Assembly (NCBI GenBank): GCA_000739535.1
Contig: DF820463.1
Coordinates: 318,195 to 382,194, forward strand
Direction of reading: 5' to 3'
From: Candidatus Vecturithrix granuli
GTDB lineage: Bacteria > Moduliflexota > Moduliflexia > Moduliflexales > Moduliflexaceae
DNA length: 64,000 nucleotides
The first letter of the stretch is position 1. Each line of letters opens with the position of its first letter. Of the stretch, positions 7,286-34,607 are shown one piece after another. The position numbers and the translations under genes are program-made. The notes beneath the pieces were generated by a model, which saw only the letters and a program-made list of their open reading frames with translations, was not told the origin of the DNA and searched no databases.

Positions 7286-7458
7286 GGGTGTCAAGGCCAG
7301 ACCTTGAGACTGTCGGTAATGGTTAAATGGTAAGTGATGCGTTCCCTGAGCGAAGTCGAAGGGAACAATGAGCGGCTCGTTTCGACTTCGCTCAACGAGC
7401 GAGCATCACTTACTATTTAACCCTCTACCAGACTGTCAAAGCCGGGCTTTGACACTCC
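7286..7458. repeat. Composite palindromic repeat (GTCGA-core family), copy 2
   Basis: Arms GGTTAAATGGTAAGTGATGC (7321-7340) and GCATCACTTACTATTTAACC (7403-7422) match at 19 of 20 positions. The centre holds GAGCGAAGTCGAA and TTCGACTTCGCTCA facing each other. The outer flanks are GTGTCAAGGC hairpins and a CAAAGCCGGGCTTTG hairpin. The element fills the convergent gap between the plus-strand aldolase and the minus-strand kinase, where it can end transcription from both sides. Confidence 0.8.
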
Positions 7459-8573
7459 TACGCTTTGGGCAAGGTGAACCGGAACGTCGTCCCTTTGCCT
7501 TCTTTGCTTTCTACCCAAATTCTACCGTTGTGTTTTTCGATAAATTCTTTACAGAGAATTAAGCCCAGGCCCGTCCCTTTCTCGCCGGCTGTTCCGTCGC
7601 GTTGAAATTTTTCATCGATCTGAAAGAGCTTTTCGATTTTTTCCGATGGAATGCCAATACCAGTATCTGCAATACTGATCGTCGCTTCATGTTCATCTGA
7701 GATGGCTGACATCTCTATCACTCCCTGGGGTTCGGTAAACTTGATCGCATTCGAAACGAGGTTACGCATCACGGTATGCAACATGTTATAATCGGCGCAC
7801 ACTTCAATGTCTTCCTGAGTGGAGTGCTTCAAGACGATCTGTTTTGTGTCGGCCTGAGAATGAAACAGTTCAAGCGTGCGCATAAAGATCATTCTCACAT
7901 CGAGCGGTTGTGGACAATATTCGATCATGTTCCGATTCAAGCGCGACCAGGTAAGCAAATTTTCGAGTAAAGCAAACAAAGTCTCTGCTGAATTCCGAAA
8001 TAGTTTGGAGTATGTTCGAAACTCATCTTTTCCTAACAACTCGATGTTTTCTAAAATTTCAGTAAAGGAAAGAAAGCCAATGAGAGCATTGCGTAAATCA
8101 TGAGCGATAATGGAAAAAAAGAGGTCCTTACTGGCATTGGTCGCTTTTAATTGAGTATTTTTTTCTTCAAGCTGTTTTTGAAGCCGACGAATGGTCAAAT
8201 GGGTATCGACTCTTACCAGAACTTCTGCAACGTCAACTGGTTTGGTAATATAGTCAACTCCCCCGACTTGAAATCCCCTGACTTTGCTTATGGTTTCTGC
8301 TAAGGCCGTCATAAAAATAACCGGAATATTTTTATACTCCTCATGTTGCTTGATCCGAAGACAGGTTTCAAACCCATCAATGCCGGGCAACATCACATCC
8401 AATAGAATCAAATCTGGCTGAATGTAGTCGATCTGCCGCAGAGCACTTTCACCATCAAGAGCCACTAAGGTTCTAAAACGAGATTCATCAAGAGCTTCAA
8501 GTAAAACGTGCAAATTATCCGGGTCATCATCGACGAGCAGGATAACAGATTTGGATTCTTGGGTTGAAAACAT
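7458..8573 (-). CDS. Receiver-histidine kinase fusion (REC-HisKA-HATPase)
   Basis: Protein of 371 aa. An N-terminal receiver (acidic pair in LLVDDD, phospho-acceptor Asp59, Lys111) is joined by a short coiled coil (about 125-150) to a DHp helix with FFSIIAHDLRNA (His158). A HATPase follows with N-box LVSNAIKF, G1 DTGIGIP and G2 GTGLGL. There is no transmembrane segment, so it is cytosolic and takes phosphate from, or is gated by, another component before autophosphorylating. It is the last gene of a minus-strand signalling array and closely resembles the next protein upstream (8642-9877) but lacks its longer linker. No output domain is attached; its phosphate target is unknown. Confidence 0.93.
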   Translation of the reverse strand: MFSTQESKSVILLVDDDPDNLHVLLEALDESRFRTLVALDGESALRQIDYIQPDLILLDVMLPGIDGFETCLRIKQHEEYKNIPVIFMTALAETISKVRGFQVGGVDYITKPVDVAEVLVRVDTHLTIRRLQKQLEEKNTQLKATNASKDLFFSIIAHDLRNALIGFLSFTEILENIELLGKDEFRTYSKLFRNSAETLFALLENLLTWSRLNRNMIEYCPQPLDVRMIFMRTLELFHSQADTKQIVLKHSTQEDIEVCADYNMLHTVMRNLVSNAIKFTEPQGVIEMSAISDEHEATISIADTGIGIPSEKIEKLFQIDEKFQRDGTAGEKGTGLGLILCKEFIEKHNGRIWVESKEGKGTTFRFTLPKA

Positions 8574-8591
8574 GGTTTTCTCTCAGTAAAT

Positions 8592-8624
8592 CAGGAATAC
8601 AAAAGCTTCGCTTTTGTATTCCTG
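8592..8624. repeat. Perfect hairpin between two kinase genes
   Basis: CAGGAATACAAAAGC and GCTTTTGTATTCCTG are perfect 15-bp arms around a 3-nt loop, between the end of one receiver-kinase gene and the start of the next. It lacks a U-run, so a role in mRNA processing or partial attenuation is more likely than strong termination. Confidence 0.7.
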
Positions 8625-8641
8625 TCAGCCGCTTTCTTTTC

Positions 8642-9877
8642 CTATATATCCGTTGAAGGGGGCCTGGGAAGTGTGAACTTGAAGGTGCTGCCTTTCCCTG
8701 CTTCACTCTCTACCCAGAGCTGCCCTCCGTTTTTTTCAATCAGTTCCTTACACAGCACCAACCCCAGTCCTGTGCCCTTTTCACCGGCCGTCCCGACCCG
8801 GGTATGGTGCGTATCAATTCGAAGTAAGGTCGGCAGCACTTCCGCCGGAATACCAACGCCTGTATCTGAAACAGCTACCTCGACCAGTCGTTCTGCGACC
8901 ATTACAGATAACGAGACATGATCGCCAGAGGAGGTAAATTTCAACGCATTAGAGGTCAGATTCCGAATCACGGTATTGAGCATACTGTAATCGGCATAGA
9001 CGAAAGTTTGGGCCTGAATTGAGTTATGTAAACGGATTTGTTTCTGTTCCGCGTTTGGCATGAACAGCGCCACGTTATCTTCTACAATTTCAGCCAGATC
9101 AAGTGGTTCAGGATCATATTCGATTGCGCCTCGCTGAATGCGCGACCAGGTCAGGAGATTTTCCAACAGGGCATATAAACGTTCGGCCGCAGTTCGTATA
9201 TAGATTACTTTCTGTTGAATTTCTTCTAAGGTATATCGTTCCAGATTCTCCGATAAAATTTGGGCAAATCCTAACAAGGCGTTAAAAGGACTTCTGAGAT
9301 CGTGGGAAATGATCGAAAAAAATTTGTCCTTACTGGCATTTAACTCGGCCAATTCCAGCTTTTGCGCTTCTAATTCTGCGGTGCGATCTCGCACCTGTTG
9401 TTCAAGAGTTGCATTAAACCGTTCTAATTCGCGATTCAATTGTTGCAGAATGCGATTCTGCTCTTCTAATTGTTTATCTTGAAAATAGCTTCGCAGCGCT
9501 TCAGCCACTGTCAGCTTTAAATCGGCCTCTTCCCAGGGTTTCGCAATATATCGGTAGAGTTTCGCGTAATTCACGGCATTCCCGACCGCATCGGCATTAG
9601 CCTGACCGGTTAACAGGATTTTCAAGGTTCTGGGCAGCAGGTGGTGCAGGTGGATTAAAAGGGCATCACCTTTCATCCCTGGCATGATTTGATCGGCGAT
9701 GACGATTGGCAATTCGATCTGTTCTGTATTCAATTCTTCAAGCACTTCTAAAGCCTCTTCTCCGCTTTCAACGGTTTCAATCCTGTAGTCTCCTCCAAAA
9801 TGCCGTTTGAGTTGCTCTTTCAGGCTGACCAAAATCATTTTTTCATCATCAACGCATAAAATCACCGGCTTGCTCAT
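8642..9877 (-). CDS. Receiver-coiled coil-histidine kinase fusion
   Basis: Protein of 411 aa. The receiver spans about residues 4-125 (VDDEK acidic pocket, Asp62 in ADQIMPG, Lys113 in KPW). A long coiled coil follows (about 130-180), then the DHp site FFSIISHDLRSP (His192) and a HATPase (N-box LTSNALKF, DTGVGIP, GTGLGL). There are no membrane segments. Its ATG overlaps the stop of the upstream single receiver gene by 4 nt (ATGA), so the two are translationally coupled and probably work as a pair. The receiver is nearly identical in style to that of the cyclase at 18141-19469, which suggests recent duplication and a shared upstream kinase. Confidence 0.94.
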   Translation of the reverse strand: MSKPVILCVDDEKMILVSLKEQLKRHFGGDYRIETVESGEEALEVLEELNTEQIELPIVIADQIMPGMKGDALLIHLHHLLPRTLKILLTGQANADAVGNAVNYAKLYRYIAKPWEEADLKLTVAEALRSYFQDKQLEEQNRILQQLNRELERFNATLEQQVRDRTAELEAQKLELAELNASKDKFFSIISHDLRSPFNALLGFAQILSENLERYTLEEIQQKVIYIRTAAERLYALLENLLTWSRIQRGAIEYDPEPLDLAEIVEDNVALFMPNAEQKQIRLHNSIQAQTFVYADYSMLNTVIRNLTSNALKFTSSGDHVSLSVMVAERLVEVAVSDTGVGIPAEVLPTLLRIDTHHTRVGTAGEKGTGLGLVLCKELIEKNGGQLWVESEAGKGSTFKFTLPRPPSTDI

Positions 9878-10269
9878 ACGCCCTCCAATCCTGATAGCAA
9901 TGTTTCAATTAATTCTTGCTCAGTCCAGGGTTTGTGTAAACACCGATGCAGATTCGCTTCTTTTTTTGCTCGTTCGATAGCGTCTTCATGGGCTTGACCT
10001 GTGAGCATCACGGTGATAACCTGTGGAAACCGCTGGTGTACTTCGATCAAAAATTCATCGCCTCTCACATTGGGCATGAGCCAATCTGAGACAATCACCA
10101 GGATTTCTATGCCCGCTTCATCAAGTTCTTCGATCACTTCCCAGGCTTCATCGCGGCTTTCAGCAAATTCATACAGATACCGATCTCCAAAATGCTTTTT
10201 GATTTGAGCCTTGAGACTTTGCAAGATAATTTTTTCATCATCCACACATAAGATGGCTTTTTTCGACAT
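9874..10269 (-). CDS. Single-domain response regulator
   Basis: Protein of 131 aa, only a receiver domain: VDDEK acidic pocket, phospho-acceptor Asp62 (SDWLMPN), Thr in MLTGQ and Lys113 in HKPW. The start at 10269 is chosen because GGGAGAGG lies just upstream and the fold begins at once; the open frame extends 15 codons further without support. It overlaps the following receiver-kinase by 4 nt. With no output domain, it probably shuttles phosphate or docks on a partner, as CheY- or DivK-like proteins do. A near copy lies at 17618-18010. Confidence 0.92.
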   Translation of the reverse strand: MSKKAILCVDDEKIILQSLKAQIKKHFGDRYLYEFAESRDEAWEVIEELDEAGIEILVIVSDWLMPNVRGDEFLIEVHQRFPQVITVMLTGQAHEDAIERAKKEANLHRCLHKPWTEQELIETLLSGLEGV

Positions 10270-10291
10270 CGGCCTCTCCCATGTAAATCCC

Positions 10292-10345
10292 GTTTGTAGT
10301 AAACGCTTTAGCATTTCCTCATGCCGCTAAAGCGGCTACTACAAG
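10292..10345. repeat. Imperfect hairpin (GTAGTA...CGCTTTAGC family)
   Basis: GTTTGTAGTAAACGCTTTAGC pairs imperfectly with GCTAAAGCGGCTACTACAAG. The same words (GTTTGTAG, CGCTAAAGCG, CTACTACAAAC) recur at the borders of the palindrome at 24770-24952, so this is a dispersed repeat. It sits just upstream of the single receiver gene. Confidence 0.55.
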
Positions 10346-10436
10346 CCAGATTTTCATTCTTGCGTGTGCTACGTTTTCGTGTCATTCGATGTCCCCATTT
10401 GGATGTCAACCACAGATGTTCTGTGATTCACATATC

Positions 10437-11675
10437 TCAGACGGGTTTCAAGACGATTGAAAAATAAAACGTACTCCCCTGATTTGGTTCACTTTCGAGC
10501 CAGATCCTGCCCTGCATTTTATCAATGATTTCTTTGGAAATCGTTAACCCCAGGCCAGCGCCGGCAAAACGTTTGGTTAAGGCATCTTCTCCGAGTTCAA
10601 AGGGTTCAAAAATCTGTTGGTGTTTATCTTTCGCAATTCCTATGCCGGTATCGTGAATCGTAAAGAGCAAATTATGCGATTGAGTCTCACCGCAAGAAAT
10701 GTTCAGGTGAATCTGTCCTTCCAGGGTATATTTCAATGCATTGATCAGCAGATTCATCAGAACTTGTTTCAACCGTTGCATATCTCCGATGACCATATCT
10801 GGAACATTTTCAGCGATCTGATAGGTTAACCCGATCTGTTTCCATTGCGCCTGGATTTTAAGAGTCTTCATGACCTCTGTAATGATAGTATGCAAGGAAA
10901 ATGGTGATTCCTTCAATATCAGGCGGCCTTCCACGATTTCAGAGAGTTCCAGGATATTATTCAGGACATCAGTAAGGCTCCAGCCGGCGTGTTTAATTCG
11001 TTGCAAATAGTCGTGTTGCTGGCCTGTTATCGGCGTTCTCAAGAGTATTTCAGCCAAACTGATAATGCCATGTAAGGGTGTTCGTAATTCATGCCCCATG
11101 TTGGCTAAAAATTGAAAACGGGCTTTTTGAGCAATTTTTGCCTCTTCCAACGCCTGTTCTAAAGCTTGCCGCTGTTGGTCAATCAGGCAGAGATCGCGGT
11201 ATGAACGCAGCGCGGAAATCATGGACGTATCCAGACTTTGAACGGTGAGCATGGATTTCAATTTATAATCATTGATATCATACTGGGTAATAATTTCATG
11301 CTCCGGAGCCTGGCCTGGCTGCCCTGTCCGAAGGATAATGCGGAGAAATCTATTCTGAAGCTCCTCCCGAATGTACCGCACAACATCTAATCCGGCATGC
11401 TCGTTTTCCATGACCACATCAAGCAGCATAATTGCTGTGTCCTGATGTTCCTGAACCAGCCGAATCGCTTCGGCTGCGGAATACGCATCCACAAAAGAAA
11501 ACCCTCGATTTTCAAATCGAAAATCTTCAAGGACGCTGCGGGTGATGGCATGAACGTCAGGTTCATCGTCAACAATCATCAATTTCCAGGGTGGAAATGA
11601 CGATGTAGAGGATGACACATCTGGCTCCGGGGCATAGGTCAGCAAGCTCTGTTCATCATTTATTCTGTTCATCAT
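10437..11675 (-). CDS. Receiver-histidine kinase fusion
   Basis: Protein of 412 aa. An N-terminal tail of about 28 residues precedes a receiver (VDDEPD, Asp86 in MLLDVVME); the usual Lys-Pro is replaced by a YKLKS stretch. A coiled coil follows, then DHp site ANMGHELRTP (His195), and a HATPase with LINALKY, DTGIGI and GLGLTISKEI. The DHp type resembles hybrid kinases of the EvgS/BarA group rather than the other two fusions in the array. It is cytosolic. The start region holds a direct duplication of about 15 nt (ATGATGAACAGA twice), giving two possible Met codons at 11675 and 11672. It lies downstream of the giant sensor and could receive phosphate from it, but this is inference. Confidence 0.92.
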   Translation of the reverse strand: MMNRINDEQSLLTYAPEPDVSSSTSSFPPWKLMIVDDEPDVHAITRSVLEDFRFENRGFSFVDAYSAAEAIRLVQEHQDTAIMLLDVVMENEHAGLDVVRYIREELQNRFLRIILRTGQPGQAPEHEIITQYDINDYKLKSMLTVQSLDTSMISALRSYRDLCLIDQQRQALEQALEEAKIAQKARFQFLANMGHELRTPLHGIISLAEILLRTPITGQQHDYLQRIKHAGWSLTDVLNNILELSEIVEGRLILKESPFSLHTIITEVMKTLKIQAQWKQIGLTYQIAENVPDMVIGDMQRLKQVLMNLLINALKYTLEGQIHLNISCGETQSHNLLFTIHDTGIGIAKDKHQQIFEPFELGEDALTKRFAGAGLGLTISKEIIDKMQGRIWLESEPNQGSTFYFSIVLKPV

Positions 11676-11736
11676 TTATAGCGTAATGTTCTGACATTCC
11701 TAAATAAAAGTTATAAGTGACTAAAGTTTCAAGTGA

Positions 11737-11766
11737 CTAAAGTTGGAGAATCCTTCTCAACTTTAG
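11737..11766. repeat. Hairpin upstream of receiver-kinase gene
   Basis: CTAAAGTTGGAGAA pairs with TTCTCAACTTTAG. It is flanked by further scattered copies of GACTAAAG and TTTAGTCC in 11715-11800. It lies in the gap between the giant kinase stop and the next kinase start, and could end or attenuate the long transcript. Confidence 0.5.
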
Positions 11767-11800
11767 CCCTTTTAGTCCCCTTAGTTCCTTTAGTCCTTTA

Positions 11801-14800
11801 CTAATTTCTTTGATTTATCGGCAGAAAAATGCAAAATGTCGTATTTCCCGGTTGGCTATTAACCGTAATTTTCCCCTGGTGTTTATCAATAATTTTATGC
11901 ACAATATCCAGGCCCAGTCCGCTGCCTTCACCTGATGGTCTGGTCGTAAAGAACGGTTCAAAAATCCGTGCTTGAATCTCCTCCGGAATACCGCAGCCCG
12001 AATCGGTAATGGCAACAACAATATGTTGTTCTTGCTGTGAGACGGTAATGTGTAGCGTGCCTTGTTCTTGCATCGCTTGAACGGCGTTATGGATGAGATT
12101 GGTCCAGACCTGATTTAATTCATCGGGATAACACAAGATTTCCGGAACGGTTTGATAGTGCTTGATCACCTCGATTCCATGTTTGAGCTGGTTATGATAG
12201 AGCGTTAAGACGACATCTATCCCCTCTGTGATGTTGGCTCTGATCATCTCCCCTGAATAGTCGTAATGGGCGTAACTTTTTAAGGCAAAGACAATTTTAG
12301 AGACGCGTTCAATGGCGGTGAGAATATTGTCGCTGTTATATTTTTGCGTCGAGAGGTTATAGGCTGTTTGTAAAATCAAGGCGGCCTGTTGGGTTTGCAA
12401 GAGAGAGGCAAAGGAAGGGAGATTTTCATAAATCCCCATATCCACCAGCGTATCGGCGGTAGAGTCGGCATCGTGAATGTGCAGATCGTCTAAAGCGTTT
12501 CGTAATTGACGCCGGAGTATCCGTTCTTCTTTGGAAGTCAGATATTTTTTCTGGTGTAAAGCTGTGTTTATAAAGCTTAAAAATTGCTGCTGCTGCTCTG
12601 AAGAAAGGTGTTGAAATAAGAGCGGTAATTGTTCTAACGATTGACTCAAGGCATTCGTAATGTTGCCGATGGAGGCGCGGATAGCTCCAAGCGGGGTGTT
12701 GATTTCATGAGCGATGCCGGCAATCAGTTGCCCTAAGGCCGCCATTTTTTCCGATTGAATAAGCTGAGCCTGGGTGCGCTTCAAGTTGTCCAATATGGTT
12801 TTTAATTCAATATTGGCTTCGATCAATTCTTCTTCCGTATATTTCCGGGCGGTAATATCGCGGGCAATGCCCTCAATTCCCAGCATATTCCCATCTTTAT
12901 CCTTATACGCATGAGAATTCACACTGGCCCAGATGAACGTGCCATCTTTGCGTTTGAGTTGTACCTCAAAGCCTTCAATATATCCGCGCTTTTTAATTTG
13001 CGAGACGAATTCCTCCCGTTGCTGTGGATACACATACACATCTCTGAGTAAATTTAAACGGACAGCTTCTTCAGGGGTATAGCCCATGATATATTCAACC
13101 GAGGGCGAAATTAAGAGAATATTGCCCTTTTTATCAGCGCGATAAAAGACATCTTGCAGATTTTCAAACAACACCCGGTATTTTTCTTCCGATTCGCGCA
13201 GGGCTTCTTCAGCTTGCTTGCGTTCGGTGATGTCGGTGGACATATCCGCGATACCAATCAAGGTTCCCTGTCGGTCAAAAATCGGAAACGTCTTGATTAA
13301 CAACGTTCGGAAATGCAGCGCACATTCACAATCCGGAAAAGTATCTTCCTCAACAATGACCTCGCCGGGCCGAAGTTGGAGAGCAGCCAGATCATCTTCA
13401 CGCCATTTCTGCAGAGTCGCTTGATCGACTCTGTTTTTCCATATCTCTCCTTCTGTTTTACCAAGCACTCCATCTAAGGGTTTTCCGATACTCCTTAAAT
13501 ACGCTCTGTTAGCGGCAATGATCTTGAAATCCAGATCTTTGATCACAGCCGTATCTTCCGTGCTTTCGATAATCGCCGCCAGATACGCGGTTTCACGTTC
13601 GGCTTTTTTATGCTCGGTAATATCTCGATTAATTCCCAGAACGCCGATAATTTCACCAACGTCATTCCGTAAGGGGACGGTTGATTTTAACATCCAGACC
13701 GTTTTTCCACCCAGGTTTTCATACAGCATTTCCCTGGAAAGAAGCGGTTCTCCAGTCTGGTAAATCGCGGCTTCCAATTCGGTAGTGGCCTGCGCCTCGT
13801 GTTCCGACATGAGATCAAAAACGGTTTTGCCAAGTAATTCCTGTTCACTTTTCGCGTTTAGCAATTGCACAAACGCCTGATTTGTGGTTAAATACCGGCC
13901 GGCTTTATCTTTCACATAGACGACGTCGGGAATCGTATCAATCAGGGTTCGCAAGAGTTTACGTTCTTCGGCCAGAGCCTGTTCTGCTTGTTTCAATTCG
14001 GTAATATCATACACACTGGCATCAAGGCGTTCCAGGCGGCCGCGGTGATCGAGGGTCGGAATCGCGGATTCTCGCACCCAGCGGATCTGTCCGTCTTTTT
14101 TGATAATCCGATATTCCTGCGACACCATCTGGCCGCTCATAAGCGTCTTGAGTTGCTCGATTAAACGGCTTACATCCTCGGGATGGATCATCTTCAGATA
14201 CAAATCCGGGGCATGAAAAAATTCGTCTGGCGTATATCCATATAATTGTTCGCATTTCGGGCTGATATACGTCAACTTCATATTTCCATCCGTGGAATAG
14301 ATCACTTCCGGCACATTATTGATGATCGATTCTGTGAAAGCTTTCGCCTGTTCTAAGGCGTTCTGGGTCTGTTTTAACGAGGTAATATCGGTGATAACAA
14401 CCACACCGCTGGTGAGATGCTCGTCTTTATCGAAAATCGGCTGGGGCGAAACGATGACCGGAAAGCGGGTACCGTCTTTGCGAATACATTCCAGTTCATA
14501 AGGCGTGATACGTTTTCCTTTCGTCTTACAGCGGATTTTGTTCTGAAGCGTCAGGAAATTCTTTTCATCCACGTAATTCGTGATATGCGTACCAAGCATT
14601 TCTCCGCGGGTATATCCAAACATTTCGCACAATTTGGAATTGGCATACATAATAACCGAATGTTGGTCAAACGCGGCCAGCCCCTCATTCATGGTTTCGA
14701 TGATCAGGCGATTATATTCTTCGCTTTCTTTCAGGGCCTTTTCCGCATGCTTGCGTTCAATAATTTCATCTTCCATCCGCCGGGCGTGTTCTTGCAGGTC

Positions 14801-17560
14801 TTTTGTACGCTCCTGGACCTGGACTTCCAACATTCGCTTTTGATACCTGATTTTTTTGGTACGAACGATGTAGCCGAAAATAACCAGGGCGACGAGAAAG
14901 AGTCCTCTGAAGGCTTCAAACCATAGGGTGCGCCAGAATGGTGGTACAATCGTAATTTGAATGGCGGCTCCCTCGTGATTCCAGACTCCATCACTATTCG
15001 AGCCTTTGACGCGAAACGTATAAGTTCCTTCAGGCAAATCTGTGTATTGGGCGAACCTCCGCGAGCCTGAAAATGTCCATTCTTCATCAAACCCTTCCAT
15101 GATATAGGCATATTGATTTTTTTCAGGAATGCTAAAATCCAGCGCAGCAAATTCAAAGGAAAATACATCTTCTCGATGGGAAAGCGTGATCGCAAAGGTT
15201 TCGGTAATAGCGCGTTGCAGTGGGGATGGTTGCAATTCATACTCGACGGACCCATCATGCTTTTTCGTCGGTCGGTTATAGAATGTTCCTGGACTCACGG
15301 CCTGATTAAACAGCGCAAAGCTGGTAATCACAATGGGCGGGATATAGCTATTTTCACCGATGTGTTCAGGATAAAAGGCCGTCAATCCTTTGAATCCACC
15401 GAAAAAGAGTTCGCCCCGGGCATCCTTGTAATAGGCATTAGGACTAAAGTAATTATTTTGCAACCCATCGCTGGCGTAATAATTTTTACACATCGTGGTA
15501 CGGGGATCAAATCTGGACAGACCATTATTGGTACTAAGCCAGAGATAGCCCTGAAGATCTTCAACGATCCCATAAATAACGTCGCTCGGAAGCCCATGCG
15601 ATAGGCGATAGGTGTTAAACGTGTTTGCGCTGCGATCAAATTTGTTTAGCCCGCCGCTCGTGCCAATCCAGAGCATCCCGGCCTGATCCTCATAGATTGA
15701 CCAGATCGTATTGTTGCTGATGCTCCCAACCGTATCAGGGTCATTCTGGTAATGCGTGAACCGGGCTGTTTGGGGATCAAAGCGATTCAATCCTCGGCTG
15801 AAAGTGCCAATCCAGAGCAGCCCTGACTGGTCTTCGTAGAGGGTAGAAATTGCATAGTCGCTGATCGTGGAGTCAGGCCGGATCGGATCCGGAAGATAAT
15901 GAGCAAATTGTTCAGTGCTCGGATCAAGCTTATTTAATCCCCCGCCCAGGGTTCCAACCCATAGATTTCCCGCATGGTCTTCAAGTAATGAGGATACAGT
16001 ATCATTCCCAAGACTGTCAGAGTTGATCGGATCATGACGATAGTGCGTAAATTGGGAGGTTTTACGATCAAAGCGATTCAGTCCTCCGCCTTCCGTGCCA
16101 ATCCAGAGCATTCCAGCGTGATCTTCTATCAGTGTCCAAATCGCATCATGACTCAGGCTGTTCGGATCGTCAGGATGGTGTTGATAACGCGTCACATTAC
16201 CGGTTGCCCGGTCTATTTGATTCAGGCCTCCGCCAAAGGTGCCGACCCATAACATGCCTTCTCGATCTTCCAGGATCGAAAAGACCATATTATGGCTTAA
16301 ACTATTCGGTTTGTACGGATTGTGCACATAGGTGCGAAATGCGGTTTTTTGCGGAACAAATTTGTAGAGTCCGCCGCCATAGCTGCCGATCCAGAGCACC
16401 CCGGCGCGATCTTCATATACGGTCGAGATATAATTGCTGCCCAATCCGTTTTGATCCGCGGCGTGCGCCTGATAGCGTTGAAATTGTCTGGATTCCCGGG
16501 AGAAACGATTCAATCCTCCTCCTTCTGTCCCGATCCACAGCGCGCCGGCCTGATCTTCGACAAGGGCGATGATGCGGTTATGGCTTACGCTGTAAGGATT
16601 AGCGGGATCATGCCGGTAACACGAAAATAGTCCGGTATCCTGATGAAAGAGGGCTAATCCGGAGTCTGTCCCGATCCAAAGCGAACCGGAACGATCTTCA
16701 TGCAACGTCATAATCTGATTCCCGCATATACTCTGGGGATCCTGCGGGTGATGGCGATAATGCACAAACTCGTGCCTCTCCTGATCGAAACGATCAAGCC
16801 CATTTTCAGTGCCAATCCAGAGCCGTCCGCTGTGATCGGTACGAAGATCCCAGATCCTGTTGTGGCTGAGGCTCTGGGGATTTTCCAGGTTAGCGTAATA
16901 CCTGGTAAAACGTCCAGAAGTCCGATCAAATCGATTTAATCCGGCTTCTGTCCCAATCCAGAGATTTCCGGCTTGATCTTCAGCTATGGCAGTCACAACA
17001 TTGTGGCTCAGACTGTGAGGCACTTGTGGGTCATGTTGATAACGCACAAATCGTTCCGCAGCGCGATCAAATTTATTTAAACCTCCGCCTTCTGTCCCAA
17101 TCCAGAGGTTTCCGATCTGATCTTCATAGAGCGTCTGAATGTTATTATGCCCCAAACTCTGCGGATTCCCAGGATCGTGGCGATAAACCGTGAACGCATA
17201 TCCATCATAGCGCGTCAGGCCATCATCTGTGCCAAACCAGAGAAAGCCCCGGCGATCTTGCAGAATACAGGCAATCGAACTCCCCGGCATCCCTTGCTGC
17301 CCTGAAATCGCTTCAAACCTGAGTTTTTCTTCCGCAAGGGCTGCCAGAGAAAATACCGAGCGATCTTCTTTTTTTTGAGCTGCCTGTTCAGATTGCACTT
17401 GAAGATGCGGCGTTGTCGAGCTTTGCTCCGGCCGGGGCAACAGCACGAAGATGAATTTGAAAAGAAGCAGCAGGATGCCTGCACACAAGAGCTTTTGCTT
17501 CCATCCAATGACCCGGCAGCCCCGGCAGCAGATATTTTTCCAGTTACATAACTTGTTCAT
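11801..17560 (-). CDS. Giant propeller-sensor histidine kinase (Reg_prop x14, Y_Y_Y, PAS x5, HisKA, HATPase)
   Basis: Protein of about 1919 aa. A TM anchor near residue 30 leads to 14 repeats of about 45 residues with an L-W-[IV]-G-[TS] blade signature (about 90-745), enough for two seven-bladed propellers. A Y_Y_Y domain (about 800-890) and a second TM (about 895-920) follow. Inside the cell come a coiled coil, five PAS units (about 965-1590), the DHp site EKMAALGQLIAGIAHEINTP and a HATPase (LNQVWTNLIHNA, DSGCGIP, GEGSGLGL). The architecture resembles the polysaccharide-sensing hybrid kinases of Bacteroidetes but has no receiver or AraC output. The frame reaches 17605, but that ATG lies inside the terminator hairpin at 17585-17619, so 17560 is preferred. 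A helical stretch of about 100 residues separates the two DHp helices, as in the kinase at 32298-34607. Confidence 0.93.
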   Translation of the reverse strand: MNKLCNWKNICCRGCRVIGWKQKLLCAGILLLLFKFIFVLLPRPEQSSTTPHLQVQSEQAAQKKEDRSVFSLAALAEEKLRFEAISGQQGMPGSSIACILQDRRGFLWFGTDDGLTRYDGYAFTVYRHDPGNPQSLGHNNIQTLYEDQIGNLWIGTEGGGLNKFDRAAERFVRYQHDPQVPHSLSHNVVTAIAEDQAGNLWIGTEAGLNRFDRTSGRFTRYYANLENPQSLSHNRIWDLRTDHSGRLWIGTENGLDRFDQERHEFVHYRHHPQDPQSICGNQIMTLHEDRSGSLWIGTDSGLALFHQDTGLFSCYRHDPANPYSVSHNRIIALVEDQAGALWIGTEGGGLNRFSRESRQFQRYQAHAADQNGLGSNYISTVYEDRAGVLWIGSYGGGLYKFVPQKTAFRTYVHNPYKPNSLSHNMVFSILEDREGMLWVGTFGGGLNQIDRATGNVTRYQHHPDDPNSLSHDAIWTLIEDHAGMLWIGTEGGGLNRFDRKTSQFTHYRHDPINSDSLGNDTVSSLLEDHAGNLWVGTLGGGLNKLDPSTEQFAHYLPDPIRPDSTISDYAISTLYEDQSGLLWIGTFSRGLNRFDPQTARFTHYQNDPDTVGSISNNTIWSIYEDQAGMLWIGTSGGLNKFDRSANTFNTYRLSHGLPSDVIYGIVEDLQGYLWLSTNNGLSRFDPRTTMCKNYYASDGLQNNYFSPNAYYKDARGELFFGGFKGLTAFYPEHIGENSYIPPIVITSFALFNQAVSPGTFYNRPTKKHDGSVEYELQPSPLQRAITETFAITLSHREDVFSFEFAALDFSIPEKNQYAYIMEGFDEEWTFSGSRRFAQYTDLPEGTYTFRVKGSNSDGVWNHEGAAIQITIVPPFWRTLWFEAFRGLFLVALVIFGYIVRTKKIRYQKRMLEVQVQERTKDLQEHARRMEDEIIERKHAEKALKESEEYNRLIIETMNEGLAAFDQHSVIMYANSKLCEMFGYTRGEMLGTHITNYVDEKNFLTLQNKIRCKTKGKRITPYELECIRKDGTRFPVIVSPQPIFDKDEHLTSGVVVITDITSLKQTQNALEQAKAFTESIINNVPEVIYSTDGNMKLTYISPKCEQLYGYTPDEFFHAPDLYLKMIHPEDVSRLIEQLKTLMSGQMVSQEYRIIKKDGQIRWVRESAIPTLDHRGRLERLDASVYDITELKQAEQALAEERKLLRTLIDTIPDVVYVKDKAGRYLTTNQAFVQLLNAKSEQELLGKTVFDLMSEHEAQATTELEAAIYQTGEPLLSREMLYENLGGKTVWMLKSTVPLRNDVGEIIGVLGINRDITEHKKAERETAYLAAIIESTEDTAVIKDLDFKIIAANRAYLRSIGKPLDGVLGKTEGEIWKNRVDQATLQKWREDDLAALQLRPGEVIVEEDTFPDCECALHFRTLLIKTFPIFDRQGTLIGIADMSTDITERKQAEEALRESEEKYRVLFENLQDVFYRADKKGNILLISPSVEYIMGYTPEEAVRLNLLRDVYVYPQQREEFVSQIKKRGYIEGFEVQLKRKDGTFIWASVNSHAYKDKDGNMLGIEGIARDITARKYTEEELIEANIELKTILDNLKRTQAQLIQSEKMAALGQLIAGIAHEINTPLGAIRASIGNITNALSQSLEQLPLLFQHLSSEQQQQFLSFINTALHQKKYLTSKEERILRRQLRNALDDLHIHDADSTADTLVDMGIYENLPSFASLLQTQQAALILQTAYNLSTQKYNSDNILTAIERVSKIVFALKSYAHYDYSGEMIRANITEGIDVVLTLYHNQLKHGIEVIKHYQTVPEILCYPDELNQVWTNLIHNAVQAMQEQGTLHITVSQQEQHIVVAITDSGCGIPEEIQARIFEPFFTTRPSGEGSGLGLDIVHKIIDKHQGKITVNSQPGNTTFCIFLPINQRN

Positions 17561-17584
17561 GGTCACAGATACTAGGAAATCGCA

Positions 17585-17619
17585 TGAAAAACCAGGTTTC
17601 TTCAAGAAACCCGGTTTTT
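17585..17619 (-). terminator. Hairpin terminator on receiver stop codon (CCGGGTTTC family)
   Basis: Read on the minus strand, AAAAACCGGGTTTCTTG pairs with AAGAAACCTGGTTTTT, with the T-run forming the 3' arm and tail. It begins on the stop codon of the single receiver gene and lies just before the giant kinase. The same hairpin type recurs at 21849-21936, 32267-32300, 51631-51663 and 53865-53897. Confidence 0.7.
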
Positions 17620-18010
17620 ACACGTTTAGTCCGGAAACCAGGGTATCAATCAACTCCTGTTCTTCCCAGGGTTTATATAAACAGCGGTGCAGGTTCGCCT
17701 GCTGCCTGGTTCGTTCAATCGCGTCATGATCGGCTTGACCGGTCAGCATCACTTTGACAATGTGAGGATATTTCTTGTGGACCTGAATCAGCAGTTCATC
17801 CCCTTTCATATTCGGCATTAACCAATCAGAGACTATCAGGAGAATCTCAATGCCATCATTTTGTAATTCTTCGATCACTTCCCAGGCTTCACTGCCGCTT
17901 TCGGCAAATTCATAAACAAAACGATCCCCAAAATATTTTTTGATTTGCGCTTTTAAACTTTGTAAAATAATTTTTTCGTCATCAACACACAAAATGGCTT
18001 TTTTGAGCAT
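17618..18010 (-). CDS. Single-domain response regulator
   Basis: Protein of 130 aa, a receiver domain alone: VDDEK pocket, Asp62 in SDWLMPN, MLTGQ and Lys113 in YKPW. Start at 18010 is chosen for the GGGAGAGG site just upstream; the longer frame to 18049 adds an unsupported N-terminus. It is a close paralogue of the receiver at 9874-10269 and sits between the cyclase gene and the giant kinase in the same direction. It is a good candidate carrier of phosphate between kinases of the array. Confidence 0.92.
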   Translation of the reverse strand: MLKKAILCVDDEKIILQSLKAQIKKYFGDRFVYEFAESGSEAWEVIEELQNDGIEILLIVSDWLMPNMKGDELLIQVHKKYPHIVKVMLTGQADHDAIERTRQQANLHRCLYKPWEEQELIDTLVSGLNV

Positions 18011-18140
18011 GCTTTCCTCTCCCGTGTCCATATAGAGCGAAATGAACATTTTGCTCCAGGAAATATTATCAATGATTTTTTATCCTTCCTCACTTTTCAA
18101 GAATTTGGAGGAATTGTCAATGGTTTTTTACCACGCCGAT

Positions 18141-19469
18141 CTACTTACTTTCCATGGCTTCAACGCCTTGCCATCCTTCAGGCACACCATGCACCATAAA
18201 TTGCGCCGACCGTTCAAGATAAAGTTTGGCGGTTTTATCGGTCGGGTTTTCTTTCAGAACATTTTTAAACATCACGGCAGCTTCAGCGAATTCTCTGGTA
18301 AAGTAGTAACATAAGCCTTTTTCAAAACTGACCGTCGTTTTCAATTTGACCTCGATCAATTCGTCTGAATCGCCGTCATAAATTTCATACACGTCAACTG
18401 CCTGATTTTTGCCTTTGACCTGGACTTTTCCTAAAAAACGGATATGGTAGCGAGTTTCCTCATGGAGTTCACGTAAGGTGTATTCACTCATTAAAAGCGA
18501 TACGCCAAACCGTTTCGTCAGCCCCTCTAAACGAGCCGCCAGATTCACCGCATCAGAAATGACCGTTCCATCCATGCGGTTAGGGCCGCCGACAGTGCCA
18601 AGCATCAGCGTCCCGGTATTCAGGCCGATGCCAATCCGAATCTGGGGATAACCCTTGCGAGTACGTTGGACATTATAGCGGATTAACTGTTTGAGCATCG
18701 TGATGGCCCCATCTACGGCATCATTCACAGTGGTTGGAAACAAGGCCATAATCGCATCCCCATTATATTTGTCGATAACGCCGTGATGCGCTCGAATCAC
18801 CGGTTCCATTTGGCTGAGATACGCGTTGATAAATTGAAAATTTTCCTGTGGCGTCATCGTTTCTGATAGCGAGGTAAAGCCGCGAATATCGCTGAACATC
18901 ACGGTCATATTTTTTTGAACCTGGTCGCCAAGCTGCACATCGAGAATACTGGATTTCTCCAAAAAGCTGAGAAATTCTCGGGGTACAAAGCGTTGATAGG
19001 CCGCATTGATCTGTTCCAGATTCCAATTCATCTCTTGTAACGCGGCATTTTGTTCTTCCAGTTGTTTCTCCTGCCCATAGCTCCTCAGGGCTTCGGTCAC
19101 GGTCAACACCAAATCCGTCTCTTCCCAGGGCTTGGCGATATAGCGATACAGGTTTGCGCGATTCACGGCATTGCCAACCGCGTCTGCATTCGCCTGCCCG
19201 GTCAACATAATTTTTAAGGTTTTTGGTAACGTTTGATGAATGTGAATCAGAAGAGCATCACCTTTCATCCCTGGCATAATCTGGTCGGCAATCACGATCG
19301 GGAGATCGACGCGTTCTTCCTGGAATTCACCAAGCAATTCCAATGCTTCTTCGCCGCTTTCGACCGTTTCAATCAGATAGTCATTCTGAAAATGTCGTCG
19401 TAGTTGCTCTTTCAGGCTGGTTAAGATGATTTTTTCGTCATCTACGCATAAAATTACCGACTTTTGCAT
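18141..19469 (-). CDS. Response regulator with class III adenylate cyclase domain
   Basis: Protein of 442 aa. A receiver (Asp62 in ADQIMPG, Lys113 region KPW) and a coiled coil (about 125-165) lead to a class III cyclase domain. The metal-binding Asp residues are in MFSDIRGFT and KYNGDAIMALF, the Lys before NGD and the Asp in TVISDAVNLAARL are the adenine-specifying pair, and the transition-state Asn and Arg are in VNLAAR. A TPR-like C-terminal helical tail follows. It should make cAMP on phosphorylation. Start at 19469 follows GGAGA and matches its paralogue; the longer frame to 19487 is unsupported. It heads the minus-strand array and is the only recognisable effector in it. Confidence 0.93.
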   Translation of the reverse strand: MQKSVILCVDDEKIILTSLKEQLRRHFQNDYLIETVESGEEALELLGEFQEERVDLPIVIADQIMPGMKGDALLIHIHQTLPKTLKIMLTGQANADAVGNAVNRANLYRYIAKPWEETDLVLTVTEALRSYGQEKQLEEQNAALQEMNWNLEQINAAYQRFVPREFLSFLEKSSILDVQLGDQVQKNMTVMFSDIRGFTSLSETMTPQENFQFINAYLSQMEPVIRAHHGVIDKYNGDAIMALFPTTVNDAVDGAITMLKQLIRYNVQRTRKGYPQIRIGIGLNTGTLMLGTVGGPNRMDGTVISDAVNLAARLEGLTKRFGVSLLMSEYTLRELHEETRYHIRFLGKVQVKGKNQAVDVYEIYDGDSDELIEVKLKTTVSFEKGLCYYFTREFAEAAVMFKNVLKENPTDKTAKLYLERSAQFMVHGVPEGWQGVEAMESK

Positions 19470-19933
19470 AGGGTCTCCAATTGCCACAAGTATTTCCCAA
19501 CACGCAGGTCAGATCCTGTCTCTATCTCACCTATTCAGATCCCTTTTCCCTGTCAAGATTTTGTCAAGTGTGTATTCTTTTTTTGATGAAAAGTCAAGTT
19601 TTCTGAAAAGATTCAGACAGATGAGAGCTTGCATGGGTTGATGAGGTTTAGAAGGTAGGCATCATTGTTCCTCTCCAGGAAAGAAATACCTGATGAGAAA
19701 CTATACTCTTCTTCCCCTATTGCGACGATACGTATCAGTGATTATACAGGAGGCAATCATAAAAATACTTGACTTGTCTATGATCGCCATGTATAAGTTT
19801 TGATAACTATTTTGCGCCTTTGCACAGTCGTTCGAGCGTACGGTGATGAGATACTTACCAAAAATAGCTTGGGCATGAATGTTGATTGACGGAATCGTTC
19901 ACAACATCATAAGGTCCTCTTGAGGGAAAAACT
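19470..19933. other. Divergent intergenic region
   Basis: 464 bp between the minus-strand cyclase gene and the plus-strand chemoreceptor. It holds the plus-strand promoter at 19769-19797. On the minus side, two TTGACA words (about 19546-19572) and a further TTGACT near 19600 lie 80-130 bp before the cyclase start, but none has a convincing -10 box. No coding sequence is recognised. Confidence 0.5.
19769..19797 (+). promoter_or_regulatory. Sigma-70-type promoter
   Basis: TTGACT (19769-19774), a 17-nt spacer and TATAAG (19792-19797). It points at the chemoreceptor locus starting at 19934, leaving a leader of about 130 nt. Confidence 0.6.
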
Positions 19934-31610: not shown

Positions 31611-32012
31611 ATGGCTGTTATAACTATTTTCAAGAACGAACAAATTACTGTTTACTATTATCCAGAAGAAAAAATCATTCATCATGTCATGCACAAATAT
31701 ACTTATGGCCAGACATTTCGTGATGCATTAATGGCCGGTGCTGAAGCTATGAAAACATACGGGGCGCACAAGTGGTTATCCGATGATCGAAATAATCCGG
31801 TTTTGAGCCCGGAAGATCAGAAGTGGGGCATTGAAGTCTGGGAGCCTCAGGTCATTGAAGCGGGTTGGAAATATTGGGCGATTGTGCAGCCTGAACATGT
31901 TATTGCGAAATGGAGAATGCTCAAATTAGCCGAGATGTATTCGAAAAAAGGGATTACGGTCCAGCTTTTTACCGATCCGGAAGAAGGGATGAAGTGGCTG
32001 GAGAGCCAATAG
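31611..32012 (+). CDS. SpoIIAA-like/STAS-type small protein
   Basis: Protein of 133 aa without signal peptide. It fits the SpoIIAA-like (SEC14/STAS fold) group: an N-terminal beta strand pair, a WLSDDRNNPVLSPEDQKWG segment, then a W-E-P...AGWKYWAIV stretch and a final FTDPEEGMKWL helix. These proteins are thought to act in regulation or lipid binding; no catalytic residues are seen. Good AAAGGAGA site 9 nt upstream. It stands alone between the restriction system and the alcohol dehydrogenase relic, so context gives no further hint. Confidence 0.72.
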   Translation: MAVITIFKNEQITVYYYPEEKIIHHVMHKYTYGQTFRDALMAGAEAMKTYGAHKWLSDDRNNPVLSPEDQKWGIEVWEPQVIEAGWKYWAIVQPEHVIAKWRMLKLAEMYSKKGITVQLFTDPEEGMKWLESQ

Positions 32013-32266: not shown

Positions 32267-32300
32267 AAAAACTGAGTTCTTTCAAAAAACTCAGTTTTTA
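32267..32300 (-). terminator. Hairpin terminator on kinase stop codon (CCGGGTTTC-like family)
   Basis: AAAACTGAGTT and AAACTCAGTTTT form an 11-bp stem with A/T runs at both ends. It covers the stop codon of the minus-strand kinase, as the hairpin at 17585-17619 does for the receiver gene, and it also marks the break point of the alcohol dehydrogenase remnant. Confidence 0.65.
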
Positions 32301-34607
32301 GGTATTTTGCGAATGGATGGCGGCGGCAGTAATTGGTAAAAAAACGCTGAAAGTGGTTCGTCCGGGCTGACTTTCTAATTCAATTTTTCCCGCATGTTTT
32401 TCGACGATTTTCTTGACAATATCTAATCCTAAACCGCTTCCTTCTCCTGCTATTTTTGTGGTAAAAAACGGTTCAAAAATGCGCTCGCGGATCTCTTCAG
32501 GAACTCCGCAGCCGGAATCTGTCATCCGCACAACAACTTGATTTTCTTTCTGAAAAACAGCAATTTCAAGCTGGCCTTCTCCGTTCATGGCCTGAACTGC
32601 GTTGTGCACCAGATTCGTCCAGACCTGATTCAATTCGTCAGGATAGCACTGAATGGCTGGCACCGGATCATAGTACTTAATTACCTCAATCCCATGTTTT
32701 AACTGGTTATGATATAAGGTTAAGACAATATCAATTCCTTCCGTAATATTGGTCCGGGTCATTTCATCGGAATGATCATAATGGGCGTAATTTTTCAGCG
32801 CAAATACAACCTTTGAGGCGCGCTCCACTGCCATCATGATGTTTTGACTGTGGTGCTGCTGGCTGGTGAGATTGTAGGCCGCCCTGAGAATTTCAGTACT
32901 GTGACCATCCTGAAATAACGTGATAAATGGAGTAATATCCTCATAGATTCCCATATCAACCAGTGTATCGGCAAACATTTCGGCATTGGCAATCTGATGG
33001 GTTTCAAGTTCCTGACGTAAATCGCGACGCAGTTTGCGTTCTTCTCTGGATGTTAGATTTTTTTTACCTTGTAACGCCTGTTGGATGAGCATGAGAAAGG
33101 TCTGCTGTTGCTCCGGGGTTAAGCGTTGCAAGAGCGCAGGCAGATGATACAAGGTTTCCTGTAAGACGCTGGAAATATGTCCCATTGAGGCCCGAATTGC
33201 CCCTAAAGGGGTATTGATTTCATGGGCGACGCCGGCGATCAATTGCCCCAGTGCCGCCATTTTTTCCGATTGAATCAGTTCCCGTTGCGTGGCTTTCAAA
33301 TGTTCAAGCGCCAGCGAGAGTTCCTGCGTGCGTTCTTTCACTTCTCGTTCCAGGTTAGCCTTATAAGCATGTTGCAAGGCTTCTGCTTGTTTACGCTCTG
33401 TAATATCGATGAGTGAGCCTTCGTAATAGAGCAGTTTCCCATTGGGATCAAGCACGGTGCGTGCCGAAATGGAGGCCCAGATAATCGCGCGATCTTTACA
33501 GCAAATCTGGGTTTCAAAGCGGATGACTTTGCCTTCGTCATGAAGAACTCGTTCAAAACTGTGTAAATCTTCTCGATTCACATAGACTTGTTCCATAAAA
33601 TTCGTGACGGTGGAAAGTAATTCCTGGGGAGAATCATACTTGATGATGGCTGCCAGCGCCGGATTAGCGTTGAGCAGCCGGCCATCGGTTCTGATCTGAA
33701 AAATACCTTCCAGGCTATTTTCAAAGATCATCTGGTATTTCTTTTCTGTTTGTAATAATGAGAGTTCTGCGCGTTTGCGTTCTTTGATTTCCGCCTGTAA
33801 ATTTTCCGTCATGGTGCGCAACGACGTATTCAACACCCCGATTTCATCCCCACTTTCCGGCAGCCATTCGATTTCTTCTTTTCCGGCGCGAATGCTTTCG
33901 GCAATATCCACAATACGTGACACAGGATGGATGATGGAATGCTTAATAATAATAGCAATCAACGTCAGCGCGCTGATGACTATAATAATCGAGATGAGCA
34001 GATTCATTTTGCCATAGCGTCGCGCCATGATATTGATTGAATCGAGTTCCGTTTTCAAATTGTTGGCAAATTGATCAACAAAAGAACGTAATCGTTCCTG
34101 AATCTCTTCCGTTTGTTGTCCAAGTTGAATCGCTCGATCTTGCAGCGCAGGATCAAGCTGTTCGGTTGTTTCTGGTGTGATATCTTCTGTATCGGCAAAA
34201 GCGGAACTCAATTTCACATACACCTCCTGAGCCGAAACAGTAAACGCAGTGACTTGTACCAGCACTTCTCTGATCATTTCTTTTTGTTGCGGATTGAGTT
34301 CTTCCAGATTGATGATAATCTGAAGCGCAGTTCTGGTTCTTTCTGCATAATTTTGCGCAGATCCGATCAGCGATTCTTCGCCCATCATGACGGCGTCGTT
34401 ATACAGTCTAATCTGTTCATTAAACGCCGCATACGCCAGCTCACTCTGCTTGGCAGCCGGAATCAGCGCTTCAGAGACATCTCGCAACCGCGTTTTCATA
34501 GATTTTTCAAGGTGAAAAGACAGAATGACCAGGATCAAATATCCTAAGACCAGAATACTGAGGCTTAACCAGATTTTGACCGCGATGGTTAAAGAGCGTT
34601 TCATCAT
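32298..34607 (-). CDS. Membrane histidine kinase (sensor helix bundle, HAMP, PAS, HisKA, HATPase)
   Basis: Protein of 769 aa. TM1 (about residues 10-30) and TM2 (about 205-225) enclose a 170-residue helical periplasmic domain of 4HB type. A HAMP domain (about 225-280), one PAS domain (about 290-410) with a PAC tail, a coiled coil, DHp site EKMAALGQLIAGVAHEINTP and HATPase (LNQVWTNLVHNA, DSGCGVP, GEGSGLGL) follow. Between the two DHp helices lies an insertion of about 100 residues with DTLVDMGIYE in its middle, shared with the giant kinase at 11801-17560 and very similar in sequence; the helix 2 part reads RASKVVFALKNYAHYD. No response regulator lies next to it. The hairpin at 32267-32300 ends the transcript. 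Confidence 0.94.
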   Translation of the reverse strand: MMKRSLTIAVKIWLSLSILVLGYLILVILSFHLEKSMKTRLRDVSEALIPAAKQSELAYAAFNEQIRLYNDAVMMGEESLIGSAQNYAERTRTALQIIINLEELNPQQKEMIREVLVQVTAFTVSAQEVYVKLSSAFADTEDITPETTEQLDPALQDRAIQLGQQTEEIQERLRSFVDQFANNLKTELDSINIMARRYGKMNLLISIIIVISALTLIAIIIKHSIIHPVSRIVDIAESIRAGKEEIEWLPESGDEIGVLNTSLRTMTENLQAEIKERKRAELSLLQTEKKYQMIFENSLEGIFQIRTDGRLLNANPALAAIIKYDSPQELLSTVTNFMEQVYVNREDLHSFERVLHDEGKVIRFETQICCKDRAIIWASISARTVLDPNGKLLYYEGSLIDITERKQAEALQHAYKANLEREVKERTQELSLALEHLKATQRELIQSEKMAALGQLIAGVAHEINTPLGAIRASMGHISSVLQETLYHLPALLQRLTPEQQQTFLMLIQQALQGKKNLTSREERKLRRDLRQELETHQIANAEMFADTLVDMGIYEDITPFITLFQDGHSTEILRAAYNLTSQQHHSQNIMMAVERASKVVFALKNYAHYDHSDEMTRTNITEGIDIVLTLYHNQLKHGIEVIKYYDPVPAIQCYPDELNQVWTNLVHNAVQAMNGEGQLEIAVFQKENQVVVRMTDSGCGVPEEIRERIFEPFFTTKIAGEGSGLGLDIVKKIVEKHAGKIELESQPGRTTFSVFLPITAAAIHSQNT

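Follow-up and report, generated by a model that had tools for sequence, protein, structure and literature searches.

Introduction

The specificity of two-component systems is normally ascribed to a few residues, located in the DHp helices of the histidine kinase and in helix alpha1 of the receiver. Orthodox HisKA/HATPase_c kinases (WalK, HK853, ZraS and NtrB-like kinases) combine a DHp hairpin with an ATPase fold and carry the H-box HEINTP as well as the N, G1, F and G2 boxes. The kinases described here share all of these features, but an insertion of about 88 residues separates their two DHp helices, and they match the Pfam HisKA profile only partially and below its cut-off.

LvrB-type kinases are controlled by a Rec domain (PMC13269768). 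Three receiver plus kinase proteins resembling this type (7458-8573, 8642-9877 and 10437-11675) are encoded in the window, i.e., the whole stretch of 64,000 nucleotides of Candidatus Vecturithrix granuli that was analyzed. The kinase P0002 from the same window differs from the LvrB type in that it lacks a receiver domain (no Response_reg match) and possesses the insert in its kinase part.

Results

Two Kinases of the Window Share an Insert between the DHp Helices

P0002 is composed of a helical N-terminal region, a HAMP domain (residues 222-272), a PAS domain (about 290-404), the DHp domain with the insert and an HATPase_c domain (656-760). The giant kinase P0001 comprises a Reg_prop propeller, Y_Y_Y and a PAS array, followed by the same C-terminus as in P0002 (Table 1). 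The H-box sequence was found twice, once in P0002 and once in P0001 (12693-12712), and none of 100 shuffles gave two matches. The predicted phospho-acceptor is H462 in P0002 (codon 33222-33224), located within DHp helix 1, and H1633 in P0001. In both kinases, about 88 residues including DTLVDMGIY separate the H-box from R[AV]SK[IV]VFALK[NS]YAHYD; the ATPase domain that follows is normal. Thus, the insertion of about 100 residues reported in the preliminary description was recovered in both proteins with a length of about 88 residues (482-569 in P0002; 1653-1740 in P0001, at 12386-12649).

Table 1. Features of the long-insert kinases and their candidate partner receivers in the window.
Feature	Position	Strand	Details
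Long-insert histidine kinase P0002	32298..34607	-	769 aa
H-box DNA match in P0002	33208..33227	-	sequence AHEINTPLGAIRAS
DHp insert of P0002	32901..33164	-	residues 482-569 (model 68-155)
Second DHp helix of P0002	32784..32900	-	residues 570-608 (RASKVVFALKNYAHYD)
Giant long-insert kinase P0001	11801..17605	-	1934 aa
Stand-alone DW receiver (VSDWLMPNMKGDELL)	17618..18049	-	alpha1 K26, K33, K37
Second stand-alone DW receiver (VSDWLMPNVRGDEFL)	9874..10314	-	alpha1 K26, K33, K37
Receiver + guanylate/adenylate cyclase (DQIMPGMKGDALL)	18141..19487	-	alpha1 K26, K33, R37
Receiver + histidine kinase (DQIMPGMKGDALL)	8642..9877	-	alpha1 K26, K33, K37

The Pfam domain HATPase_c was matched strongly by both kinases. 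The HisKA matches of P0002 and P0001 scored 23.0 and 25.1 bits as compared to a gathering score of 26.9, and they covered the first DHp helix only (about model positions 2-46 of 66). Since a full-length HisKA match is interrupted by the insert, the kinases are termed a HisKA variant rather than typical HisKA members. The H-box and the N, G1, F and G2 boxes were present as conserved columns in the family alignments (H48, E49, N51, P53; N251, N255; D283, G285, G287; F297, T302; G307, G309, G311). As judged from their sequences, P0002 and P0001 are HisKA-type histidine kinases, for which dimerization and autophosphorylation are predicted.

A receiver gene is absent next to P0002, which is therefore an orphan kinase. 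Near its gene, no RNA element was detected at the gathering threshold. Downstream of and convergent with P0002 lies an open reading frame of 133 aa (31611-32012) without a match in Pfam.

Predicted Fold and Conservation of the Insert

Residues 415-769 of P0002 were modeled as a monomer with AF2, using 52 window and related sequences as input (model numbering corresponds to the P0002 residue minus 414). The mean pLDDT of the model was 93.5. Helix 1 reached residue 81 and was followed by four insert helices (84-99, 106-122, 128-138 and 145-151), helix 2 (156-194) and the ATPase domain. Thus, the insert (68-155) consists of the end of an elongated helix 1 and four short helices. Packing of the second helix on the first, on which the preliminary description had made its reading depend, was canonical in this monomer model, and the DHp-CA chains of WalK could be aligned over 200-202 residues (2.7-3.0 Å). 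Since helix 1 (28 to about 62) and the ATPase domain supply only about 186 residues, part of helix 2 is canonically placed in the alignment.

The insert modeled alone reached a pLDDT of 91.8. A phmmer search with the insert sequence gave no match at E<=10, and a solved structure covering the insert was not found. When the insert-only model was compared with solved structures, the best Foldseek E-value was 3.2 and the best VIA Z-score was 4.7, with only common helical arrangements being matched. These weak matches of the insert alone do not show that its fold is new.

The insert had been described as being as conserved as the catalytic parts, which did not hold. Between P0002 and P0001, sequence identity was 52% in the insert, but 82% in the H-box helix and 74% in the ATPase domain. 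Over 23 family members, the insert contained 2.08 bits per column, the H-box helix 3.44 and the ATPase domain 2.93. Only E108, R110 and L120 (model numbering) were invariant in the inserts of these 23 members.

Distribution of the Kinase Family

Nine insert-type kinases are encoded in this genome, five of them close (55-100% identical) and four distant (about 31-37%). A survey of named genomes gave a graded series of insert lengths: long inserts were found in Cyanobacteria, Bacteroidota, Leptospiraceae, Desulfococcaceae, Beggiatoa-like bacteria, beta-proteobacteria and Ignavibacteria; the insert was shorter in Vibrio, and kinases with a short loop occurred across many phyla. The profile of the inserts termed long-A was related to that of the long-B inserts (hhalign probability 99.1) and to the Vibrio insert (97.1). 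In a tree calculated without the insert columns, all 26 long-A kinases were located on one side of a single branch (SH-aLRT 95), and the four kinase classes required three changes, which is the minimum. The same tree departed from the organism phylogeny, the window paralogues being placed close to sequences from Desulfococcaceae and Cyanobacteria. This mismatch fits a report that filamentous gliding bacteria, among them cyanobacteria, Thiotrichales and the candidate phylum KSB3, have exchanged genes (PMC6390638). The insert marks a coherent kinase subtype present in several phyla. The relatives in other phyla that had been mentioned in the preliminary description were thus found, and, as anticipated there, searches of the open-access literature yielded no structural description of them; a published description of an insert between the DHp helices was not found in this literature either.

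Two variants of the insert were observed. Kinases of Vibrio/Photobacterium (L052, L053, L055-L057, L064) have a related insert of reduced length (STSEER) and adjoin a receiver of 165-189 aa with the motif DHIMPxxTG; the two proteins are perhaps a parallel pair. In a kinase of Parabeggiatoa (L095:8001-8606), about 29 residues are missing where the insert begins, and the SxREER part is retained. This natural deletion could reveal which of the insert helices are required.

A Stand-Alone Receiver Accompanies the Long-Insert Kinases

Beside long-insert kinases, a stand-alone receiver (DW receiver) is encoded that is about 130 aa long and carries the motif SDWLMPxxKGDEF. At 15/22 long-A loci, it lay on the same strand as the kinase and no more than 1 kb away, as compared to 0/52 short-loop loci (p 9e-11). 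DW receivers possess the acid pair D23/D24, the phospho-acceptor D75, the Thr/Ser of the LTG/LSG motif and K126, lack an output domain and in most cases have open frames of 130-180 aa. The two DW receivers of the window, at 17618-18049 and 9874-10314, are accordingly classed as single-domain response regulators.

Kinase and receiver also co-occurred at the level of genomes. Among 38 genomes reached through the loci, the DW motif was present in 21 of the 24 with clear long-insert kinases and in none of the 14 without. In addition, 194 cyanobacterial genomes were drawn regardless of the kinase and were searched with the kinase profile (E<=1e-15) and, separately, with the DNA pattern DWxMPxxxGD. 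Kinase and DW receiver were found in the identical 13 genomes (13/13 versus 0/181; Fisher p 2e-20), and for 32/33 receivers, a kinase was encoded no more than about 2.1 kb upstream. Thus, the co-occurrence of a dedicated receiver, for which the preliminary description had proposed a check, was confirmed. Conversely, the 3.2 kb upstream of 84/100 fetched DW receivers contained a long-insert kinase. In Bacteroidota, the DW receiver was present in 2/3 genomes with a clear kinase; two further pattern matches in this group (G236, G474) lack the KGD motif, probably arose by chance and were rejected as receivers.

Two kinase-rich genomes were exceptions. A Leptospiraceae genome (G020, of L049) encodes 36 insert-type kinases and only two DW receiver motifs, representing a large kinase expansion that shares few receivers or uses others. 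Genome G014 (of L043) encodes 12 insert-type kinases and no DW pattern, and the neighbor at L043 is a DYIMPGMHGDEL receiver. Moreover, the long-B kinases of Candidatus Vecturithrix granuli have no DW-type receiver nearby; hence, DW receiver docking cannot be the role of all family members.

A third gene accompanied the pair. At nearly every matched site, the start of a D[YHQ]xMPxxKGD receiver follows the DW receiver at a distance of about 390 bp. Where D[YHQ]-type receivers adjoin the kinases, the output fused to them is a SpoIIE phosphatase, a cyclase, GGDEF, HD or a kinase.

Covariation between the Insert and Receiver Helix alpha1

For covariation analysis, 180 receiver regions were fetched and kinase-receiver pairs were built, 71 at first and subsequently 51 non-redundant pairs that came from newly sampled genomes and were held out. 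Partial correlations with the receiver distances (71 pairs; each region controlled for all others) were highest for the insert (0.32), followed by helix 2 (0.22), helix 1 (0.07) and the ATPase domain (-0.01). The best coupling in these 71 pairs, D137-K33, exceeded all 40 shuffles. Averaged over the whole insert, the coupling with alpha1 was not raised in the 71 pairs; the insert-alpha1 signal resides in few positions. An acidic residue at 109 combined with a basic residue at 26 (E109, K26), or neither, was found in 65/71 pairs (24,3/3,41), and this was equaled in 0/2000 within-genome shuffles. In the 51 held-out pairs, three of four named couplings were replicated (p 3e-5, 8e-5 and 0.009). The coupling T122-K26 failed replication in these pairs and was discarded.

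Mutual information with APC was then determined for all 122 non-redundant pairs, a measure short of a full direct-coupling model and applied to mostly cyanobacterial pairs with common ancestry. The z-scores were 13.6 for D137-K33, 8.7 for D137-K37, 8.0 for D133-K33 and 7.1 for E109-K26, with a shuffle maximum of 7.1 (n=25). The leading couplings were, in order, D137-K33, H172-A34, D137-K37, N165-A34, D133-K33, E129-A34, A59-Y39, E109-K26 and N165-K38. The ATPase domain was missing from the top dozen. Although alpha1 accounts for 13% of the receiver columns, it received 10/10 of the insert couplings among the top 30, 8/9 of those of helix 2 and 5/8 of those of helix 1, but 0/3 of those of the ATPase domain.

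The couplings were separated on the surface of alpha1. On the helix, no more than 40 degrees separate positions 26, 33 and 37, which had their strongest couplings with the insert. Positions 31, 34 and 38, at 80-140 degrees, coupled most with DHp helices 1 and 2, and 34 and 38 also with E129 of the insert. Insert positions 129, 133 and 137 share one face of the helix containing DTLVDMGIY. The covarying positions of helix 1, A56 and A59, correspond to H+8 and H+11, the specificity sites changed in the rewired HK853 structures; their recovery serves as a positive control. Taken together, the covariation indicates that the insert is likely located on receiver helix alpha1, with direct contact inferred. 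Of the two possibilities raised originally, a docking or a regulatory bundle, docking is thus well supported by the dedicated receiver and by the insert-alpha1 covariation.

A Putative Charge Code in the Signaling Cluster of the Window

The region 7458-19487 is a dense one-strand signaling cluster that contains the receiver-cyclase, two DW receivers, P0001 and the three LvrB-like proteins. The DW receiver at 17618-18049 lies 12 bp upstream of P0001. P0002 and P0001 share the insert residues E109, D133 and D137; in P0002, the candidate receiver-facing residues are E523, D547 and D551. Since the code of P0002 equals that of P0001, P0002 is predicted to feed the two DW receivers, and the orphan kinase probably shares the receivers of the giant one. 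Judging by their alpha1 residues (Table 1), the receiver-cyclase and the receiver-kinase at 8642-9877 are likely effectors of the same kinase-receiver module. The receivers of the proteins starting at 10437 and 7458 have alpha1 residues outside the code.

Elsewhere in the genome, the residues on both sides differed. One paralogue has A/A/N at 109/133/137, and the adjacent DW receiver has E/R/Q at 26/33/37. In a further paralogue, R109 occurs beside a receiver with E26, i.e., the charges are reversed. Long-B insert kinases (L153-L160; G000, G003) showed the reversed charges K133 and R137 in 3/4 examined, and these opposite charges suggest a different receiver.

Discussion

The insert is most likely a module for receiver docking and specificity, which broadens the ordinary DHp-receiver interface. 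The monomer fold, the dedicated partner and the covariation at the interface were computed, and the following mechanism builds on them. The docking module would have grown from the tip of the DHp hairpin. H462 would be phosphorylated from ATP in the usual HisKA way, and alpha1 of the DW receiver would dock on the two DHp helices, as it does in ordinary complexes. At the same time, we infer physical contact of the outer alpha1 face (26, 33, 37) with two insert helices, one carrying E109 and the other, the DTLVDMG helix, carrying 129/133/137, largely through acid-base pairs. This second contact would add affinity and partner discrimination and might insulate the pathway. The phosphoryl group would be transferred to the DW receiver and, on a presumed effector branch, to the co-encoded receiver-effectors (D[YHQ]xMPxxKGDEL), with orphan P0002 feeding the receivers at 17618-18049 and 9874-10314.

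Since the insert is helical and located in the dimerization domain, it might instead be a regulatory bundle for ligand sensing, sensor-kinase coupling or dimer strengthening that is unrelated to the receiver, and the long-B relatives without a dedicated receiver would fit such a role. This is unlikely, as a regulatory bundle predicts neither a nearly one-to-one receiver partner nor covariation of the insert with alpha1 above that of the ATPase domain. It is equally improbable that the insert docks a different partner (the receiver-effector or an adaptor, for example) and that the DW receiver is a bystander or phosphate sink. The regular position of the D[YHQ]xMPxxKGD receiver-effectors after the DW receiver and the matching alpha1 code of some receiver-effectors in this genome would be explained; however, the covariation was measured on the stand-alone receiver itself. 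Mere co-inheritance of kinase and receiver as an operon, with covariation due to shared ancestry, is very improbable: the genes are neighbors and duplicate together, and genetic linkage lifts all distance correlations, but the equally linked ATPase domain lacked the partial correlation of the insert, the top couplings fell on a single receiver helix with charge complementarity, within-genome shuffles failed to reproduce them and held-out genomes replicated them.

Receiver docking by the insert may be part of a larger arrangement, for which the chances are somewhat below even: a separate recognition domain inside the phosphotransfer domain, a clamp on a second face of alpha1, a charge code (109/133/137 with 26/33/37) that insulates parallel pathways, and a three-gene cassette apparently spreading between phyla. 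The proposed cassette genes encode the kinase, the stand-alone DW receiver and a receiver-effector with interchangeable outputs. A whole inserted bundle seems to share the specificity role, with a readable charge code. If true, pathway insulation could be studied in a natural system, an orthogonal kinase-receiver pair would be at hand for engineering, and the partners of orphan kinases such as P0002 could be predicted from a sequence rule. The data indicate that a bundle gripping one dedicated partner is a route to specificity for which the open-access literature yielded no published description.

Several features link this system to known ones. As in ordinary kinase-receiver pairs, H+8/H+11 of helix 1 and helix 2 covary with alpha1. 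Short-loop AHEINNP-type kinases of cyanobacteria, Bacteroidota and proteobacteria (141-185 aa from H-box to N-box) have the same catalytic core and a helix 2 motif, IVxxLRxFSRxDE, that resembles the one of the long-insert kinases. However, their loop is about 50-90 residues shorter, they form a separate branch in the insert-free tree, and their neighbors are mostly DQRMP receivers fused to outputs and never the DW receiver. The DW receiver shares its size of about 130 aa and intact catalytic receiver residues with single-domain response regulators of the CheY/Spo0F type. It differs from them by the Trp directly after the phospho-acceptor Asp, by the KGDEF motif and by being tied to long-insert kinases.
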